Below are positions 13,999-33,274 of a DNA stretch of 64,000 nt, one piece after another (position 1 is the first letter of the stretch; every line of letters starts with the position of its first letter). The position numbers and the translations under genes are program-made. Origin of the DNA: Polyangiaceae bacterium (GTDB taxonomy: Bacteria > Myxococcota_A > Polyangia > Polyangiales > Polyangiaceae); assembly GCA_023150915.1 (NCBI GenBank), contig JAKLKA010000009.1, positions 1-64,000 of the forward strand. The letters run 5' to 3'. The notes below the pieces were generated by a model that was given only the letters and a program-made list of their open reading frames with translations, searched no databases and was not told where the DNA came from.

Positions 13999-15114
13999 AT
14001 GCCGAACCGCTTCGTCTTCGATCGTGCCCCGGCGCGCATCTACTGGGAGACCACCCGGGCATGCGACTTGGCCTGCCGGCATTGTCGCGCCGAGGCGGCA
14101 CCCATGGCGGACCCGCGCGAGCTCACGACCGAGCAGGGCAAGCAGCTCTTGGCACAGCTGGCCGGCTTCGGCGACCCCCTGCCGCACCTGGTGCTCACCG
14201 GTGGTGACCCGCTCAAACGCACGGACTTGTTCGAGCTGATCGCCACGGCAGAGTCCCACGGTCTTGCGGTGTCGGTGTCGCCCAGCGGCACGCCGCTCTT
14301 GACCGCCGACGCGATCGCGCGCCTGAAACGGGCCGGGGTCGACGCCATCTCGCTCAGCATCGACGGCGCGACGGCGCAGCACCATGACGACATTCGTCAA
14401 GTGCCCGGCTGCTTCGAGCGCACCCTCGAAGCGGCGCGGGCCGCCACTCGCGAGCAGCTGATGTTCCAGGTGAACACCCTGGTCGCCAAGGAGACGCTGG
14501 GCGACCTCGAGGCCATCTACCCGCTGGTGAAAGAGATCGGGGCTGCTCGCTGGAGCCTGTTCTTCCTGGTCACGGTCGGCCGCGGAACGGTGCTCAATCC
14601 GATCTCGGCGGACGAATGCGAGACGCTCTTCGGCTGGCTCGCCGATCTCCCGCGTGGCCGCGGGCTGCCCATCGTCACCACCACCGAGGCGCCCCACTAT
14701 CGCCGCATCTTGCTCGAGCGTGCCAAGGCGCGCCCGGCGCCCGCCGGTGGCGGCCATCCGCACGCCGGCGGTCACCCGCACGGTGGCGCGGGTCCGGTGC
14801 CGGGGCTGGGGATCCGTGACGGCAACGGCATCATGTTCATCTCGAACGTGGGCGACGTCTCGCCTTCGGGGTTTCTGCCGCTGGTCGCCGGCAACGTGAA
14901 GGTCCAGAGCCCGGTCGAGATCTATCGGAGCGCGGAGATGTTCGTCGCGCTGCGTCGCACCGAAGCGTTCGAGGGGCGCTGCGGCATCTGCGAGTTCCGC
15001 GGCCCTTGCGGCGGCTCGCGCTCGCGGGCGCTGGCGGCCACCGGCAACATGCTCGCCGAAGACCCGCTCTGCGCCTATCAGCCTCGGGTCGGCGCCTCGC
15101 TCTCGGCGGAGTGA
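13999..15114 (+). CDS. Radical SAM/SPASM enzyme, TIGR04053-like
   Basis: 371 residues. The 4Fe-4S/SAM site is TRACDLACRHC (Cys22, Cys26, Cys29); the glycine-rich SAM contact is LTGGDPL. The order WETTRACDLACRHCRAEA, DPRELTTEQG, TEAPHYRR is what I know from the TIGR04053 family of radical SAM proteins, related to haem-d1/AhbD- and peptide-modifying enzymes. The C-terminal region has extra Cys residues (CGICEFRGPCGG and a final C) for an auxiliary cluster. Residues about 245-270 carry an unusual Gly/His insertion (GGGHPHAGGHPHGG). Substrate unknown. It lies five bases upstream of a membrane protein, suggesting a shared operon. Confidence 0.88.
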   Translation: MPNRFVFDRAPARIYWETTRACDLACRHCRAEAAPMADPRELTTEQGKQLLAQLAGFGDPLPHLVLTGGDPLKRTDLFELIATAESHGLAVSVSPSGTPLLTADAIARLKRAGVDAISLSIDGATAQHHDDIRQVPGCFERTLEAARAATREQLMFQVNTLVAKETLGDLEAIYPLVKEIGAARWSLFFLVTVGRGTVLNPISADECETLFGWLADLPRGRGLPIVTTTEAPHYRRILLERAKARPAPAGGGHPHAGGHPHGGAGPVPGLGIRDGNGIMFISNVGDVSPSGFLPLVAGNVKVQSPVEIYRSAEMFVALRRTEAFEGRCGICEFRGPCGGSRSRALAATGNMLAEDPLCAYQPRVGASLSAE

Positions 15115-17000: not shown

Positions 17001-17576
17001 CTACTTCTTCAAGATCGCGTCCAGCGCCTTCTTGGCGACGGCCGGCTTGCCCTCGATCACCAGGATGATCGCGACCTCGGCCTTCTCGTCCAGGAAGACC
17101 GCGCCCTTGTCCTCGCGCATCTTCGCCTGGTCCTTGGGGGACATCATGCTGCCCGAGGCGCCGGATGGGGTGCGCGCGCGCCGCACCAGCTCGAAGGTGC
17201 CCTTGTCGTTGCCCTTCATCAGGCCGAACTCGATGTTCTCGAACTTTCCGACGGTGCCCTGGTTGATCTCGACCTCTTCAGGGGCCCAACCGGCCTTCTG
17301 CACCGCGGCCACCAGCGTCTTGGCGTCGATCTCGCTGATGCTGACGCCGCCGATCGTCGCCGAGCTCTTCGGCAGCTCGGGCGCGGGGGGCGGCTCGGGC
17401 GCGGGGGCCTTGGGCGGCTCTTCGGCCTTGGGCTCGGGCTTGGGCGCCTCGGGCTGGGGCGCTGGCGGCGCCGGTGCCGGCTCCGGCGCCTTGGCAGTTT
17501 CCGGTGGCGGCGGCGCGCCGCAGGCCGACAGCAAGAACCCGATCCCCAGCACCCACCCCACGCTCGACTTCCGCAT
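17001..17576 (-). CDS. Small Pro/Ala-linker lipoprotein
   Basis: 191 residues. The signal MRKSSVGWVLGIGFLLSAC places the lipobox Cys at 19. Residues 20-72 are a Pro/Ala/Glu/Lys linker typical of periplasm-spanning segments. A compact C-terminal domain (about 75-191) contains SATIGGVSISEIDAKTLVAAVQKAGW and ends in Lys-rich helices; no family was recognised. The neighbour at 17634 has the same layout and may share its transcript (57-base gap). Convergent with the GT-C-like gene, with stops one base apart. Confidence 0.78.
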   Translation of the reverse strand: MRKSSVGWVLGIGFLLSACGAPPPPETAKAPEPAPAPPAPQPEAPKPEPKAEEPPKAPAPEPPPAPELPKSSATIGGVSISEIDAKTLVAAVQKAGWAPEEVEINQGTVGKFENIEFGLMKGNDKGTFELVRRARTPSGASGSMMSPKDQAKMREDKGAVFLDEKAEVAIILVIEGKPAVAKKALDAILKK

Positions 17577-24695: not shown

Positions 24696-25868
24696 TCACT
24701 CGCCGTACAGCCCCAGCTCGCGGCAGATGATCTGCTGCTGGATCTCGCTCGTGCCCTCCCAGATCGGGCCGACCCGGGCGTCGCGGAAATAGCGCTCTAC
24801 GGGCAGGTCTTCCACGTAGCCGTAGGCGCCGTGGATCTGCACTGCGTCCGAGGTGATGTCCACCGCCGCCTCGGTGCAAAACAGCTTGGCCTCGCTCACC
24901 TGTCGCGTGCAGCGCGCGCCGCTGTCGAGCAGCTCCGAGGCGCGCTGCACCAGCGCCCGCGCGGCGTCGAGGCGCATGGCCATGCGCGCCACCTTGAAGC
25001 CCACGGCCTGGTGGTGGCCGATGGGCCTGTCGAACGCGCTGCGCTCTTTGGCGTACGCCAGCGACGCCTCGAACGCTGCCTGCGCCACGCCCAGGCTGAG
25101 CGCCGAGATGTACAGGCGGTTCACGTCGAGCAGCTCCATCATCTGTCGGAAACCCCGCCCCGAGCCGGTGCCACCCCCCAGCCCGCCGGCAGGCGCGAAT
25201 GCGTCGTCGAAGAACACTTCGCTGGTCTCGCTCGAGCGCATGCCCAGCTTCTTCATCGGCGGGCCGAAGCTCACCCCGGGCGTGCCACGCAAGATGACGT
25301 GAACCCCGATGCCCTTCGCGCGCTCTTGCCGGGGCAGGCCGGCGTGATCGGCGCGAACCGCCGCCACCAGGAAGGCGTCCGCCGTGGGGCCGTTCGAGAT
25401 GAACGTCTTCTGCCCGCGCAGCAGCACGCCGCCGTCGGTCTTGGTGGCGGTGGTGGTCATGCTCGCCAGATCCGAACCGCCCCGCGGCTCGGTGAAGGCC
25501 AGCGCCGGCAAGATCTGCCCCGCCATCAGCGGCTCGAGCAGCGCCTGGTTGGGCTGGTCGCCCTGCAGGCGCACCAGCACCGCCGGTGAGAGGATGCTGG
25601 CCATGGCGCCGATGGCGAACCCGCCCGCGACGCGCGCAATCTCTTCGGCCACCACGCACAGAAGCAGCGAGCCGCCGCCCGAGCCCCCGAGGGCCTCGGG
25701 CACACCCACCGACAGAAGACCGAGCTCGGCCAGGCGTGGCAGCACCCGCTCGCGCGGGAACTGCCCGCTCGCCTCGGCGCCTGCCACCAGCGGCGCGAGC
25801 TCGCGATGCGCGAATTCGCGCACAGTGTGCTGAACGGCCATCTCGTCGTCGCTCAGGCGATACCCCAT
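24696..25868 (-). CDS. Acyl-CoA dehydrogenase
   Basis: 390 residues from ATG 25868, preceded by GAGGGAAG. Flavin-dependent alpha,beta-dehydrogenation of an acyl-CoA; electrons normally go to ETF. Family signatures are all present: N-terminal helical domain with VREFAHRELAPL, LAFTEPRGGSDLASM at the FAD/substrate face, KTFISNGPTADAFLV, QIHGAYGYVEDLPVERYFRD, and WEGTSEIQQQII containing the catalytic Glu of the short/medium-chain group. Length is standard. It is divergent from the haem protein at 25958 (89-base gap) with no beta-oxidation partners nearby, so the acyl substrate is open. Confidence 0.95.
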   Translation of the reverse strand: MGYRLSDDEMAVQHTVREFAHRELAPLVAGAEASGQFPRERVLPRLAELGLLSVGVPEALGGSGGGSLLLCVVAEEIARVAGGFAIGAMASILSPAVLVRLQGDQPNQALLEPLMAGQILPALAFTEPRGGSDLASMTTTATKTDGGVLLRGQKTFISNGPTADAFLVAAVRADHAGLPRQERAKGIGVHVILRGTPGVSFGPPMKKLGMRSSETSEVFFDDAFAPAGGLGGGTGSGRGFRQMMELLDVNRLYISALSLGVAQAAFEASLAYAKERSAFDRPIGHHQAVGFKVARMAMRLDAARALVQRASELLDSGARCTRQVSEAKLFCTEAAVDITSDAVQIHGAYGYVEDLPVERYFRDARVGPIWEGTSEIQQQIICRELGLYGE

Positions 25869-25957
25869 GGCCGAAACTTCCCTCTCATCCGGCTGCGCCA
25901 CAAGTCCATGACAGCCGTCAGTGGAGCCTGCCCCGAGATTGTGGACAATCGATACCA

Positions 25958-27799
25958 ATGTCCCAACGCACCCGTCTGCTCCAGGTGGTCTGCTTCGTCG
26001 CGGCGGTTCCCGCGGTCGCGTCGGCGCAGGTCTCGGGCATCGTCCGCGACACCGCGAACAAGCCCGTGGCCGGTGCCCTCGTCACGGTGCAAGCCAGCAC
26101 CATCGAGACCAAGACGGACGCCAGCGGGGCCTATTCGCTGCCCAACGCCAGCGGCAAGGACGTGAACATCGTCGCCGCCATGCCCGGCCACTACTACGGC
26201 TTCGTCACCGTGACCGCGCCGGCCACCAGCGCCGACATTCAGATCGAGCCGGTGCCGACCACCGTCGACCCCACGTACGAGATCAAGTCACCCGAGATGT
26301 GCTCGGCCTGTCACGACGAGGCGTTCACGGCGTGGAAGGACTCGCCGATGGGCAAGGCCGGGACCAACACCTGGGTCTATGACGTGTACGACGGCAGCGC
26401 CACGCCAGGCGGCAAGGGCGGCTTCGTCTACACGCGCGACAGCATCTTGGCGAAGAAGAACCCCGCCAGCGAGTGCGCGTCGTGCCACCAGCCCGAGACC
26501 TGGTGGAACAAGCCGTATTCGCCGCTGGACCCGGTGGGCTCGAAGACCGACGCGATCGAGCACGGGGTGTCGTGCGAGGTCTGCCACAAGATCGCCAAGA
26601 TCGACGCGAAGAAGCCGAACTTTCCCGGGCTGTGGCCGGGGGTGGTCGAGCTGGCCAAGCCCGGCGGCACGCCCTTCAAGCAGGTGATGTTCGGCGTGCT
26701 GGGGGACGTGACCTACGGCATCGACAACACCATGAAGGCGGCCTATCAGCCGCAGCTCGAGGCTGACGTGTGCGCAGCGTGTCACCAGGACAAGAACGAC
26801 CCCGACGAGGACGGCGATTTCGAAGAAGACAACGGCGTGATCAGCGAGCCGACCTACATCGAATGGCGCGACTCGCCCTATGCGGACCCGGCGAACCCCA
26901 AGCACGCCACCTGCGCCGACTGCCACATGAAGCCGACCAACTCGGCGCAGGCGTGCTCCATGCAGTTCCCGCCGCTCAAGCGGCCGGCGGGCGACGTGCG
27001 TTCGCACGCCTTCCCGGGCACCACTCCCGAGTTCCTCGAGAACGCCGTGAGCATGACGATGAAGGCCACCCAGTCGGCCGGCAGCATCGAGGTGGACGTC
27101 GAGATCGAGAACGACAAGACCGGCCACCACGTGCCGACCGGCGTGACCATCCGCAACATGATCTTGGTGGTGGAAGCGTTCCGCAAGCAAGACGGCAAGA
27201 AGCTGGAGCACACCGGCAAGCAAGTGATCCACGACCTGGGCGGCGTGGGCGACCCCGAGAAGGGTTACTTCGCGGGCCTGCCGGGCAAGCTGTACGCGAA
27301 GGTGAACGGTGACGCGGCCAACAAGGGGCCGACCTTCTTCACCGACGCGGCGAACATTCTCTGGGACAATCGCATCCCGCCGCTCGGCAAAGACGCCACC
27401 AAGTACAGCTTCGCCCTGCCCAGCGACGGCGGCGAGATCCACGTGCGCGCGCGGCTGGTCTATCGGCGCTCGTGGCGCGCACTGGTCGACGCCAAGGGCT
27501 GGACCACCGACGGCCACGGCAAAGAGCTGGAAGATCTCAAGGCACCGTACTTCGGCCATTTGATGGAAGAGGCGGAAGAGGTCTTCGACCTGCCGTGCGA
27601 TGCCGGCGCCTGCGTCGACGGCGGCGCGGGCGGGGCCGGCGGCACCGGCGGCACCGGCACCGGCGGCAGCAGCGCAGGGTCTTCCGGTGACGACGACGGA
27701 GGCTGCGGCTGCCGCACGGCCGGCGGCGGCTCGCTGGCGCTCTGGGCGGGCCTCGCCGGTCTGGCGCTGGCCTTCGGCGCGGCGCGTCGGCGGCGCTGA
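25958..27799 (+). CDS. Secreted pentahaem cytochrome-like protein with MYXO-CTERM-type tail
   Basis: 613 residues from ATG 25958. Signal peptide to about 23, then a carboxypeptidase-regulatory-like beta sandwich (VSGIVRDTANKPVAGALVTVQ to about 95). Five CxxCH haem-binding motifs follow: CSACH, CASCH, CEVCH, CAACH and CADCH. Several other His residues could be distal ligands. The domain from about 360 lacks haem motifs and looks beta-rich, as in cytochrome c554/NrfA-related family members. A Gly/Thr/Ser linker leads to GGCGCR, a hydrophobic helix and ARRRR, the layout of MYXO-CTERM sorting signals, which are processed and displayed on the surface. It may carry electrons at the cell surface. 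Confidence 0.88.
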   Translation: MSQRTRLLQVVCFVAAVPAVASAQVSGIVRDTANKPVAGALVTVQASTIETKTDASGAYSLPNASGKDVNIVAAMPGHYYGFVTVTAPATSADIQIEPVPTTVDPTYEIKSPEMCSACHDEAFTAWKDSPMGKAGTNTWVYDVYDGSATPGGKGGFVYTRDSILAKKNPASECASCHQPETWWNKPYSPLDPVGSKTDAIEHGVSCEVCHKIAKIDAKKPNFPGLWPGVVELAKPGGTPFKQVMFGVLGDVTYGIDNTMKAAYQPQLEADVCAACHQDKNDPDEDGDFEEDNGVISEPTYIEWRDSPYADPANPKHATCADCHMKPTNSAQACSMQFPPLKRPAGDVRSHAFPGTTPEFLENAVSMTMKATQSAGSIEVDVEIENDKTGHHVPTGVTIRNMILVVEAFRKQDGKKLEHTGKQVIHDLGGVGDPEKGYFAGLPGKLYAKVNGDAANKGPTFFTDAANILWDNRIPPLGKDATKYSFALPSDGGEIHVRARLVYRRSWRALVDAKGWTTDGHGKELEDLKAPYFGHLMEEAEEVFDLPCDAGACVDGGAGGAGGTGGTGTGGSSAGSSGDDDGGCGCRTAGGGSLALWAGLAGLALAFGAARRRR

Positions 27800-29548: not shown

Positions 29549-30739
29549 ATGCTCAGAACGCGGATTGTCGTCGATCTTCCCAGCGTCGAGGTCTTGCGGC
29601 AAAAGACCTTCGGCGAGGCCTTCCGCTCGCTCTTCGGGGCGCAGCTCGATCTGCGCACCGGCACCGAAGAGATCACGGTCACCGGGCTGGCGCTGATCCA
29701 GGCGCTGGCGAATGGCTTCCAGCTCGCCGGCATCACCAATGCAGTCGCGTTCATCGTCGATCACAAGGTGGTCTACAAGGACCCGGCCGACCAAGGCAAC
29801 GACTTGCCCCTGATCATGGCGGCCTGCCAGCAGTCGCGCCTGCTCACGCGCAAGTTCGGCGAGATGCACCTGGTGATGTCGCATGCCGAGAACGGCATGC
29901 TGGTGATCGCCGACGTGCACCTTCGCCGCGAGACCCTCAAGGGTCAGGCGGAAATGGTGGTGGACCTCTCGGGTCGGATCGACGAGCTGCGCATCGCCCG
30001 GGGCGAGACGGCCGCGGCGTATGCGGCGCGCGTGCGGGCGTTCGCGCGGACGCCGCAGGTGGCCGAGGCGTGGGAGCGCGCCTTCGAGAGCTTCGCGCGG
30101 CGCCTGGCGGCGGCGCTGGGCACGTCGCTTCCCGGGTCGCGCATCGCCGTCGAGCCGGTGAGGATCCAGCTGATCCGCCCGGGCGAGAAGCAGGTGGGGC
30201 GCTTTCGCCACTTGCAGTTCGGGGACGCGGTGCAGCGCCCGACCTATCGCCCCGCCCCGGCGCGCGAGCGCCTCGGCGCGTACGCCGACCCCTTCTACTA
30301 TTACTACTTCGACCCGTACTACGACTTCATGACGTGGGTCATCTTGGACGACATGGCCCGCCACAACTACGTGTGGAGCACGGCGCGCCTGGCCATCGTG
30401 GACGAGCACGGCGTGGACGTCACCGAGGGCGGAGCCAAGCCGCCCAAGCAGGTGCTGCGCGAGACGCTGGATGAAGACGCCGTGGACTTCTCGGACGCCG
30501 GGCTGCTCTTGATCTCGGACGACATCGACGACAGCGGCGAACTCTCGCTCGACGACCTGGCCTCGGGCAACGACTCGGACGCGTGGGGCGCCGACGCTGA
30601 CGCGAGCGGCGACAGCGCCGGCGACGGCGGCAGTGACGGCGGCGGTGGCAGCGACGGTGGAAGCAGCGACGGTGGAAGCAGCGACGGCGGGTCGTCGTGC
30701 GGGTCGTCGTGCGGCGGCGGTTGCGGCGGCGGGTACTGA
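29549..30739 (+). CDS. Uncharacterised protein with Gly/Ser/Asp/Cys-rich C-terminal tail
   Basis: 396 residues from ATG 29549 (GGAGG just upstream). No signal peptide. Residues 1-225 look like a globular alpha/beta protein of unknown family (VVDLPSVEVLRQKTFGEAF; FIVDHKVVYKDPAD). An aromatic-rich segment (PFYYYYFDPYYDFMTW) follows near 250. The last 75 residues are low complexity: Asp/Ser acidic, then GGSSDGGSSD repeats, ending GGSSCGSSCGGGCGGGY. Two identical 12-bp DNA units (30689-30712) encode GSSC. The radical SAM frame begins six bases after its stop, so they share a transcript. The tail resembles peptides modified by radical SAM or azole-forming enzymes, which makes it a candidate substrate. 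No function is known. Confidence 0.8.
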   Translation: MLRTRIVVDLPSVEVLRQKTFGEAFRSLFGAQLDLRTGTEEITVTGLALIQALANGFQLAGITNAVAFIVDHKVVYKDPADQGNDLPLIMAACQQSRLLTRKFGEMHLVMSHAENGMLVIADVHLRRETLKGQAEMVVDLSGRIDELRIARGETAAAYAARVRAFARTPQVAEAWERAFESFARRLAAALGTSLPGSRIAVEPVRIQLIRPGEKQVGRFRHLQFGDAVQRPTYRPAPARERLGAYADPFYYYYFDPYYDFMTWVILDDMARHNYVWSTARLAIVDEHGVDVTEGGAKPPKQVLRETLDEDAVDFSDAGLLLISDDIDDSGELSLDDLASGNDSDAWGADADASGDSAGDGGSDGGGGSDGGSSDGGSSDGGSSCGSSCGGGCGGGY

Positions 30740-30745
30740 GCCGGC

Positions 30746-33274
30746 ATGCTGCGTGAAGGGCGGCTCTTCGGCCGGACCAGCCGGCACTTCACACTGCAGT
30801 GGCACCTGACGCACGCCTGCACCGAAGCCTGTCGCCACTGCTACGATCGCTCACCCGTGGCCACGCTGGGCTTGCCGGCCGCGCGTGACGTGCTGGCCCA
30901 GCTGGAAGCGTTCTGCACGCACCATCAGGTGTCCGGCGGCGTCTGCTTCACCGGTGGGGACCCGCTCCTCTACCCCCACTTCTTCGAGCTGTACCGCGCC
31001 GCGGCCGCGGCCGACTTCTCGCTGAGCATATTGGGAAACCCGGCCAGCGATGACGCCCTCGACGCCCTGCTCGCCATCCGCAAGCCCCGCTACTTCCAGC
31101 TCAGCCTCGAGGGTGTCGAGGCGGTCAACGACGCGATCCGCGGGCCCGGGCACTACGCCCGCGTGATGGAGTTCTTGGGGCGCCTGCGCGCGCGTGGCGT
31201 GCGCGCGCACGTGATGCTCACCCTGCACCGCGAGAACCTGGGCAGCGTCGAGGCGCTGGCCGATGCGCTGGCCGGCAAGGTGGACCGCTTCCTGTACAAC
31301 CGGCTGGCTCAGGTCGGAGAGGGCGCAGATCTCGAGCAGCCCACGCAAGACGAGTACGTCGCGTTCATGCGGCGCTGGTTCTTGCTGGCCAAGAAACACC
31401 GCTTCGTGGGCTTCAAGGACAACCTGCTGAACATTCCCCGGCATCACTTTGGCCAGGCGCTCACGGGCGGTTGCACTGGGGCGGGGTGTGGCGCTGCGTT
31501 CAACTTCCTGGCGCTCTTGCCGAACGGCGAGCTGCATGCGTGTCGCAAGCTGCCTTCGGCGCTGGGCAGCGTGGTGGAGCAGGGGCTCGAGGCCGTCTAC
31601 CAATCGAGCGGCGCCGAGCGGTATCGCGCGGGCTGCGAGGCTTGCATGCTGTGCCCGATCCGCAACGCCTGCGGTGGGTGCCTGGCAGTGAGTCACGGCA
31701 TGGGGCTCGACCCGTTCCAGCAGGTGGACCCGCACTGCTTCTTCGACGAGCGGGCCGAGCGGATCCGTGCGGCGGCGCGGGCAGGCTCAGGCGCCCAGGT
31801 GGCGCAGCACCTCGGCGGCAACGGCGTCGGGGGCAGGCGAGGCGTCGATCCGCACGCCGAGCGCCTCGTACAGCCCGCGCCGCTGGTCCAGCTCCGCCGT
31901 GATCGCAGCAGCGGTGTTGCCGCGCAGCAGGTCGGGGCGATGCACCTGGTCAGCGGGGAGGGCGGCGAGGCGCGCCGCCAGAACGGCCGGCGAAACGTCC
32001 AGGAAGAACACGCGCGCCCCGTTGCACAAGAGGGCGCGGGTGCCCGGGGGCAGAACGGTGCCGGCGCCGGCGGAAATCACCGCGCCGCTCGGGGGCAGGT
32101 GCTCGCGCAAGAAGGCGCGTTCGGCGGTGCGAAAGGCCGGCATGCCGTGGCGCTCGATGAACGCGGCGACGGGCCCCAAGCGCTGCTCGATGATCGCGTC
32201 CACGTCCAGGTGCGGGCGCCCCAGGCGCTGGGCCACCCGGGCGCCGACCGTGGTCTTGCCCGCGCAGGTGTAACCGATCAAGACGACGTTGGCGGTCATC
32301 GGCTGCTACGCGAAGCAGGGCGCGGGCCCGGCCTGCTGGTGCTCGAGCTGACCCGGCGCTGCGGACGAAAGTGCGACGTGTGCTTCCACCGCGACATGCG
32401 CGAAATCAGGGTAGCACAGGCCGACATGTCGCTGGCCGTGGCGCGACGCGCCCTCGAGCTGGCAAGCGGGGCTGGTGTGCGGCGCGTGCGGCTCACGGGC
32501 GGCGAGCCGCTGCGCCACCCGGCCTTCGCAGCGCTGCTGGGCGAGATCCGCGAGCGTGGCTTCGAGACCTGGGTCAACACCGCGGGGCTGACCGAGGGCG
32601 GCACGCCGTGGCAGCTCTTGGGGCAGCAGGCCGACGACGTCTTGCTTCCGCTGCGCGACGCCGAGCAGCGCGCCGAGATCGCCGACGCCGTGCGGGCCAT
32701 CCGTCGGGGCGGTGCGCCCCGCGTGCGCCTGGGCGTGGTGCTCACGCCCGAGCACGTGGCCGAGCTGCCGGCCATCGCCGGACTTTCCCGCGAGCTGGGC
32801 TGCTTCCTCGAGGCGTACCGGGTGATGTCCGTTCCGGGGCAGCTGGCGGGCAGCACCGCCGGCGAGCTGGCACACGCCCTGGAGCAGCTGGACGCGGTGA
32901 ACCGCTGGTTCCCACCCGACACTCGCGTGCGGATCGCCAACGCGGTGCCCTTCTGCGTGGTGCCCGATCGCCGGCTCGTGGCTCGAAATGGCTTCGGCGC
33001 ACGCTTCGACGACGGGCGCGATCGCTTGGTGGTTTCCCCCGAAGGGGAGATCCGCCCCAGCTATTCGCTGCGCCTGGGGCTGGGGCACGTGGATCACACC
33101 ACGCTGATCGAAGCCTGGCAGCACCCGACCTTGCTCGCGCTCCACTCGGCGGGCGGGTTGCCGGCCGCGTGCCGGTCGTGCAGCGAGCTGGCCGTCTGCC
33201 GCGGTGGCAGCCGGCACGAGGCTTTGGCCGCCAGCGGAGACCTCGGGGGGATGGACCCGCTGGCGCTCGGTTGA
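30746..33274 (+). CDS. Double radical SAM open frame (SbtM-like domain, antisense linker, second radical SAM domain)
   Basis: One uninterrupted 842-codon frame from ATG 30746. Domain 1 (about 1-345) is a radical SAM/SPASM enzyme: THACTEACRHC (Cys25, 29, 32), FTGGDPL, and auxiliary-cluster cysteines in GGCTGAGCG, LHAC, CEACMLCPIRNACGGC and PHC. The pattern resembles the SbtM-type maturases of the selenobiotic peptide group. Residues about 346-517 are antisense, codon-aligned, to the shikimate kinase gene and look like a shadow rather than a real domain. Domain 2 (about 525-842) has TRRCGRKCDVC, LTGGEPLRHP, and a C-terminal CRSCSELAVC. No stop separates them. Either a true fusion, or two genes of which the first lost its stop and the second starts near GTG 32339. 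Confidence 0.75.
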   Translation: MLREGRLFGRTSRHFTLQWHLTHACTEACRHCYDRSPVATLGLPAARDVLAQLEAFCTHHQVSGGVCFTGGDPLLYPHFFELYRAAAAADFSLSILGNPASDDALDALLAIRKPRYFQLSLEGVEAVNDAIRGPGHYARVMEFLGRLRARGVRAHVMLTLHRENLGSVEALADALAGKVDRFLYNRLAQVGEGADLEQPTQDEYVAFMRRWFLLAKKHRFVGFKDNLLNIPRHHFGQALTGGCTGAGCGAAFNFLALLPNGELHACRKLPSALGSVVEQGLEAVYQSSGAERYRAGCEACMLCPIRNACGGCLAVSHGMGLDPFQQVDPHCFFDERAERIRAAARAGSGAQVAQHLGGNGVGGRRGVDPHAERLVQPAPLVQLRRDRSSGVAAQQVGAMHLVSGEGGEARRQNGRRNVQEEHARPVAQEGAGARGQNGAGAGGNHRAARGQVLAQEGAFGGAKGRHAVALDERGDGPQALLDDRVHVQVRAPQALGHPGADRGLARAGVTDQDDVGGHRLLREAGRGPGLLVLELTRRCGRKCDVCFHRDMREIRVAQADMSLAVARRALELASGAGVRRVRLTGGEPLRHPAFAALLGEIRERGFETWVNTAGLTEGGTPWQLLGQQADDVLLPLRDAEQRAEIADAVRAIRRGGAPRVRLGVVLTPEHVAELPAIAGLSRELGCFLEAYRVMSVPGQLAGSTAGELAHALEQLDAVNRWFPPDTRVRIANAVPFCVVPDRRLVARNGFGARFDDGRDRLVVSPEGEIRPSYSLRLGLGHVDHTTLIEAWQHPTLLALHSAGGLPAACRSCSELAVCRGGSRHEALAASGDLGGMDPLALG
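31787..32299 (-). CDS. Shikimate kinase-like protein, nested antisense
   Basis: 170 residues from ATG 32299. It phosphorylates shikimate in aromatic amino-acid synthesis if family function holds. Walker A is GYTCAGKTT; the substrate residues appear in LDVDAIIE (Asp pair), FRTAERAFL (Arg and Glu), the Gly-rich loop SAGAGTVLP, RPDL, and LDQRRGLYE. Length is normal. Unusually, it lies wholly within the frame of the double radical SAM gene on the opposite strand, with codons aligned. Its stop TGA is read as TCA (Ser) on the plus strand. Given the family likeness I think this is the real gene in this interval, and I assign the name aroK only tentatively. Confidence 0.8.
   Translation of the reverse strand: MTANVVLIGYTCAGKTTVGARVAQRLGRPHLDVDAIIEQRLGPVAAFIERHGMPAFRTAERAFLREHLPPSGAVISAGAGTVLPPGTRALLCNGARVFFLDVSPAVLAARLAALPADQVHRPDLLRGNTAAAITAELDQRRGLYEALGVRIDASPAPDAVAAEVLRHLGA
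32339..33274 (+). CDS. Second radical SAM domain: alternative separate gene
   Basis: Alternative reading of the 3' part of the 30746-33274 frame, given because the intervening antisense stretch is unlikely to be protein. The domain begins at LLVLELTRRCGRKCDVC, but the only start-like codon close to the right place is GTG 32339, which would cut the first beta strand. The missing good start favours either the fusion or a lost start. It has LTGGEPL, then TGLS-like loops, SPEGEIRPSYSLR, and CRSCSELAVCRGG for an auxiliary cluster. This layout is that of peptide-modifying radical SAM enzymes. The last base is the stop shared with the long frame. Confidence 0.45.
   Translation: MLELTRRCGRKCDVCFHRDMREIRVAQADMSLAVARRALELASGAGVRRVRLTGGEPLRHPAFAALLGEIRERGFETWVNTAGLTEGGTPWQLLGQQADDVLLPLRDAEQRAEIADAVRAIRRGGAPRVRLGVVLTPEHVAELPAIAGLSRELGCFLEAYRVMSVPGQLAGSTAGELAHALEQLDAVNRWFPPDTRVRIANAVPFCVVPDRRLVARNGFGARFDDGRDRLVVSPEGEIRPSYSLRLGLGHVDHTTLIEAWQHPTLLALHSAGGLPAACRSCSELAVCRGGSRHEALAASGDLGGMDPLALG

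Follow-up and report, generated by a model that had tools for sequence, protein, structure and literature searches.

A myxococcal carrier protein with a cysteine tail, encoded beside an SbtM-type radical SAM enzyme as a probable substrate for tail modification

Gene arrangement and the tail of P0001

The window analyzed here, a 64,000-nucleotide stretch of contig JAKLKA010000009.1 (positions 1 to 64,000, forward strand) from a Polyangiaceae bacterium of the Myxococcota (GenBank assembly GCA_023150915.1), contains a plus-strand open reading frame at 29549-30739, P0001, which encodes 396 aa as the first-pass annotation described. Its start Met is shared by the homologues, and its stop codon, TGA, is separated by six bases (30740-30745) from the ATG of a radical SAM gene, rSAM1, confirming the close spacing that had been noted. 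Selenocysteine read-through of the TGA into rSAM1, which is in frame in the window, was ruled out because the carrier and rSAM1 lie in different frames in the sister species (G002).

The predicted folded carrier domain comprises residues 1-334 (29549-30550, plus strand), as delimited by the translation, the homologues, and an AlphaFold2 model with pLDDT values mostly of 60-97 over residues 1-330. P0001 had been described as a large globular carrier and not a short precursor, and both its length and this predicted domain agree with that description. The body gave nothing above noise against Pfam and NCBIfam and no match at E 0.1 to the TIGR04222 profile, against which a carrier used as a positive control (L081) scored 57.7 bits. 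Fold comparison of the carrier domain with PDB yielded no clear match: Foldseek returned none at E 0.001 or better, and the best VIA-align Z score, 6.0 (YwmB), was inside the range of unrelated models.

Residues 335-396 form the tail, which had pLDDT values below 50 and is predicted to be disordered. It begins with a segment of acidic Asp/Gly/Ser repeats (30551-30685), assigned from pLDDT, the repeats and a length difference from G002, and ends in the Cys tail GGSSCGSSCGGGCGGGY (30686-30736), the proposed modification site; both are on the plus strand. GSSC occurs twice, each time encoded by the same 12-bp sequence (GGGTCGTCGTGC, at 30689 and 30701), as had been claimed for the Cys-containing units generally, but the third tail Cys (GGGC) lies outside this repeat. 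A 15-bp unit is likewise duplicated exactly in the acidic segment (30656 and 30671). In G002, whose body is 91% identical to P0001, the last 17 residues are identical with silent changes in the DNA, whereas the acidic segment differs in length. An SSCG..CGG ending also occurs on homologues with only 25-45% identity to P0001. Because the ending is retained in G002 although the DNA has changed silently and the acidic part differs in length, and because it recurs on distant homologues, the tail is, as judged from sequence comparison, beyond chance.

Elsewhere in the window, a further radical SAM/SPASM gene at 13999-15114 belongs to the TIGR04053 family (432.5 bits, cut-off 395), and 25586-27799 encodes a multihaem c-type cytochrome-like protein with a Gly/Ser/Asp/Cys stretch followed by a MYXO-CTERM sorting tail. 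An ARAGORN "tRNA" at 17401-17496 was taken as spurious, since the sequence is rich in G/C, resembles a repeat and defines no anticodon.

The neighboring SbtM-type radical SAM enzyme

The radical SAM/SPASM core of rSAM1 (30746-31741, plus strand) was identified from its score against TIGR04082 (SbtM; 464.5 bits, cut-off 350), the conservation of its cysteines and its codon pattern, with substitutions mainly at third codon positions. The match covers profile positions 196-516 of 516; the N-terminal ~195 positions are absent, so that rSAM1 is not a full-length SbtM with its N-terminal region included. The same short form was found in four other genomes (G002, G006, G044, and G054), and the form in G382 covers positions 21-516. 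Eleven cysteines (25, 29, 32, 243, 248, 266, 300, 303, 309, 312, and 331) are common to rSAM1 and the full-length G382 SbtM; they represent the radical SAM CX3CX2C motif and the SPASM-region (auxiliary-cluster) cysteines. No MNIO match was found in the window, and two MNIO genes are located elsewhere in the same genome.

The reported similarity to SbtM maturases was confirmed for this core, but the reading frame continues beyond it. The frame is open from 30746 to 33274 (842 codons) and joins rSAM1 to a second radical SAM/SPASM domain, rSAM2 (32300-33274, plus strand), which is in frame with rSAM1 and has no ATG start of its own. Between them the frame crosses, in antisense, a shikimate kinase-like gene (31787-32299, minus strand; PF01202, 103.6 bits). 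In G002 the frame is likewise open, with an identical length and the same arrangement of the three parts. The substitution pattern indicated that rSAM1 and rSAM2 evolve as protein in the plus frame and that the middle segment evolves as shikimate kinase in its minus-strand frame, with 52 of 90 changes at third positions of that frame. The antisense linker was thus rejected as a selected protein segment, since the changes there fit the shikimate kinase frame and an antisense free of stops has a chance probability of ~0.7. A survey of 108 genomes from the taxonomic family found rSAM2 in just two, the window genome and G002; the domain is possibly part of the same pathway as rSAM1.

Distribution of the carrier family and its enzymes

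The body of P0001 represents a family of Myxococcota proteins that has no Pfam or NCBIfam match. Of 289 genomes from the class, 45 contain homologues, and a profile search recovered them in 40 of 377 genomes from the phylum. Coverage of named organisms is thin, as a contig scan gave 10 loci; the nearest named relative of the window is "Myxococcales bacterium NC_groundwater_781" (L090). The bodies of the homologues align over most of their length and the tails vary, being of S-C-G type, Asp-Cys repeats or Cys-free Asp/Gly/Phe/Tyr repeats, with 3 to 17 Cys in the Cys-containing ones.

Enzymes around the homologues were located by HMM scans of the surrounding DNA, scoring an SbtM-type radical SAM enzyme, an MNIO/DUF692 protein with its partner, and a radical SAM protein designated rsB. 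One of the three adjoins or lies near 28 of 33 Cys-tailed homologues (for one of the 28, it is elsewhere in the genome) and none of 18 Cys-free ones (n = 51; Fisher p ~1.2e-9, a value that ignores descent). Under strict adjacency the counts were 23/33 and 0/18. The comparison is partly exploratory because the three classes were chosen after the first loci had been inspected, and a large share of the rsB cases belong to a single family (f36) and are not independent.

The SbtM-type gene lies directly downstream of the carrier in the window, in G002 and at a distant homologue (L086, genome G115), where the enzyme scored best with TIGR04340 (231 bits, cut-off 400) and next with TIGR04082 (177 bits), both under the cut-off. 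An MNIO and partner protein occur in the carrier operon at L070, L071, L072, and L130. A further such operon was inferred in G010 (L010) across a contig break: one contig carries the partner, the MNIO and a following gene, inside which it stops, and the carrier contig picks up with this gene. The MNIO of these relatives matches PF05114 (214 bits at L070) and scores 177 bits with MNIO_BufB, under its cut-off of 310. The third enzyme, rsB, has an extra N-terminal region and scored far under every NCBIfam cut-off. Its gene (L082:8440-9945, L142:5345-6976, and 18 further loci) lies directly downstream of Asp-Cys-tailed carriers at 16 loci (L082-L084, L133, L138, L139, and L141-L150), 4-5 kb from the carrier at L135-L137, and elsewhere in the genome of the L140 host.

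None of the three enzymes was detected in the DNA surrounding the other five Cys-tailed homologues (L073, L074, L085, L132, and L159). A related MNIO/partner pair is present in G131 on a contig other than that of its Cys-tailed homologue, and G113, G171, and G176 have only more distant MNIOs. Around the SbtM homologues of G044 and G054, no Cys-tailed neighbor was found within several kb of the gene. Across the carrier family the Cys tail tracks an enzyme of Cys-modifying type, but pairing with SbtM itself is rare, and most relatives have an MNIO or another radical SAM enzyme. The arrangement that the first-pass annotation had named as a refutation, homologues without the Cys tail next to an SbtM gene, was not seen across the carrier family.

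Two other genes were observed at these loci. Several MNIO and rsB loci have a TPM-like membrane protein gene (a weak match, E 0.058; L140:5929-6783, L181:1-372) in front of the carrier gene, a position where the window lacks it. The gene directly before the Cys-tailed carrier at L132 (L132:6336-6899) has no family match and may encode an enzyme or a partner.

The tail motif follows the type of enzyme: the residue before the tail Cys is Asp for 201 of 201 cysteines of rsB-linked carriers and for none of 44 of SbtM- or MNIO-linked carriers. On the maximum-likelihood tree of the carriers, the enzyme type changes at least seven times. Independent pairs on this tree never went against the association, but only three are on well-supported branches, and the tree-corrected test is therefore without power. 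P0001 and its G002 counterpart branch among MNIO-linked carriers, within a 17-row group with 98/93 support, which suggests, given middling support at the inner forks, that SbtM took the place of MNIO on a retained S-C tail.

The same alternation was observed in an independent second case. In G006, a TIGR04222 membrane protein (L081:4806-6755; 57.7 bits, cut-off 43) whose tail ends in SSSCGSSCGGGGGCGGCGGGG is encoded directly before an SbtM-type gene, with no MNIO gene in that place, and elsewhere in the class MNIO genes adjoin five Cys-tailed carriers of the TIGR04222 type (L196, L197, L198, L200, and L201).

Proposed tail modification and alternatives

The Cys tails of its relatives adjoin one of three enzymes of Cys-modifying type, and for this reason the tail of P0001 is probably altered chemically after synthesis, most likely to bind metal. 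We consider it likely that P0001 is a protein-sized RiPP-like substrate and that rSAM1 oxidizes its tail Cys, probably to thiooxazole, with a probable metal-binding role for the product. The folded domain would present the disordered C-terminal tail to the enzyme, and rSAM1 would act on cysteines within S-C-G or G-C-G. Thiooxazole, the group demonstrated for SbtM, is the most likely product, and the mature tail would probably bind a soft metal such as copper, like thiooxazole peptides made by MNIO enzymes. The absence of the N-terminal region of SbtM from rSAM1 suggests that the short enzyme may recognize the folded domain directly. The central proposal of the first-pass annotation, modification of the tail by the maturase encoded next to it, is supported, on sequence grounds, by the TIGR04082 score, the conserved cysteines and the association of Cys tails with these enzymes.

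The enzyme might act on the same cysteines with a different outcome, rSAM1 (perhaps with rSAM2) making thioether, sactionine-type or other cross-links from Cys to neighboring Ser, Gly or Asp. The lower-scoring matches of rSAM1 to TIGR04340 (ACGX system) and thioether-forming maturases, the second radical SAM domain in its reading frame, and the best-scoring model of rsB, the PapB ranthipeptide maturase, although far under the cut-off, are consistent with this. We nonetheless regard cross-linking as unlikely, since SbtM is by far the closest curated family (464 versus 151 bits), with a thiooxazole product according to PMC11002830, and the relatives use MNIO enzymes, of which the bufferin type also forms thiooxazole (PMC12452194 Table 1).

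That the tail stays unmodified, as a low-complexity, metal-binding or disulfide-forming segment, with rSAM1 acting on another target, appears quite improbable. The five Cys-tailed homologues without a neighboring enzyme agree with it, as do the Gly/Ser/Cys tails of TIGR04222 proteins that have no MNIO neighbors (PMC12452194 and our survey of the class). Against it, no enzyme was found with the 18 carriers lacking a Cys tail, the enzyme type tracks the residue before the Cys, and rSAM1 lies 6 bp from the carrier gene, although a search for radical SAM genes of its general kind gave no more than 14 matches across the 8-Mb genome. It is very improbable that P0001 is an accessory or recognition scaffold for rSAM1, its Cys tail serving as a cluster or sulfur relay and the true substrate lying elsewhere: a partner in trans is conceivable because the N-terminal part of canonical SbtM is missing from rSAM1, but the tails are repetitive, with widely varying Cys number, matched to enzyme type and substrate-like, and a separate partner protein is already present in the MNIO operons.

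With P0001 read as a modified substrate, the carrier family would likely be a platform served, depending on lineage, by an MNIO with its partner, an SbtM-type radical SAM enzyme, or rsB acting on Asp-Cys repeats. In a broader form of this reading, the Myxococcota would have a general system for modifying protein tails with three interchangeable enzyme classes. The SbtM-type and MNIO enzymes, unrelated in fold and oxygen requirement, would interchange on S-C tails because they install the same thiooxazole, and rsB would be a new radical SAM class acting on D-C repeats. We put the broader form forward tentatively, as quite possible. If it is true, RiPP-type cysteine chemistry extends from small peptides to the tails of folded soluble proteins; the exchange offers a natural experiment, with a radical SAM enzyme and one that depends on oxygen substituting for each other on one substrate; and rsB represents an unstudied radical SAM class whose substrates, the Asp-Cys repeats of the carriers, can be read from gene order.

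Comparison with known systems

SbtM converts Cys to thiooxazole, as related in PMC11002830 (citing Lewis 2021, which is also cited in PMC12538549 and PMC13097082). The present locus resembles SbtA/SbtM in having a maturase above the curated TIGR04082 cut-off and Ser-Cys-Gly motifs in the putative substrate, and in the Myxococcota relative G382 the full-length SbtM follows a small Cys peptide with a signal-peptide-like start and the ending GGSSCGKGSCG. It differs in that P0001 is a 396-aa protein with a predicted folded domain and no Sec codon, not a short precursor of the SbtA type, and in that rSAM1 lacks the N-terminal 195 positions and has a second radical SAM domain in frame. The ACGX system (TIGR04340) is the best match of the radical SAM enzyme beside L086 (231 bits), but this score is under the 400-bit cut-off and an ACGX repeat peptide is absent here.

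MNIO enzymes install 5-thiooxazole, the same group as the SbtM product (PMC13097082, PMC12538549), and bufferin-type members make thiooxazole (PMC12452194 Table 1). Relatives of P0001 share with the bufferin and other MNIO-PME systems the use of an MNIO with a partner protein, whereas the window has no MNIO gene and P0001 is not a small Sec-exported peptide.

A further parallel is the TIGR04222/MNIO system, which has a large carrier, a C-terminal Ser/Gly/Cys tail and an adjoining RiPP-type modifying enzyme. P0001 differs from it in having no TIGR04222 match and in the enzyme beside it, which is a radical SAM protein and not an MNIO. Our literature search, with most subscription papers outside its reach, found no report on the P0001 carrier family, rsB or the MNIO/SbtM alternation. 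TIGR04222 proteins with MNIO enzymes have already been proposed as large MNIO substrates (PMC12452194), and large Cys-tailed carriers with MNIO are therefore not new in kind; what is new is the carrier family itself and the exchange of enzymes on it.
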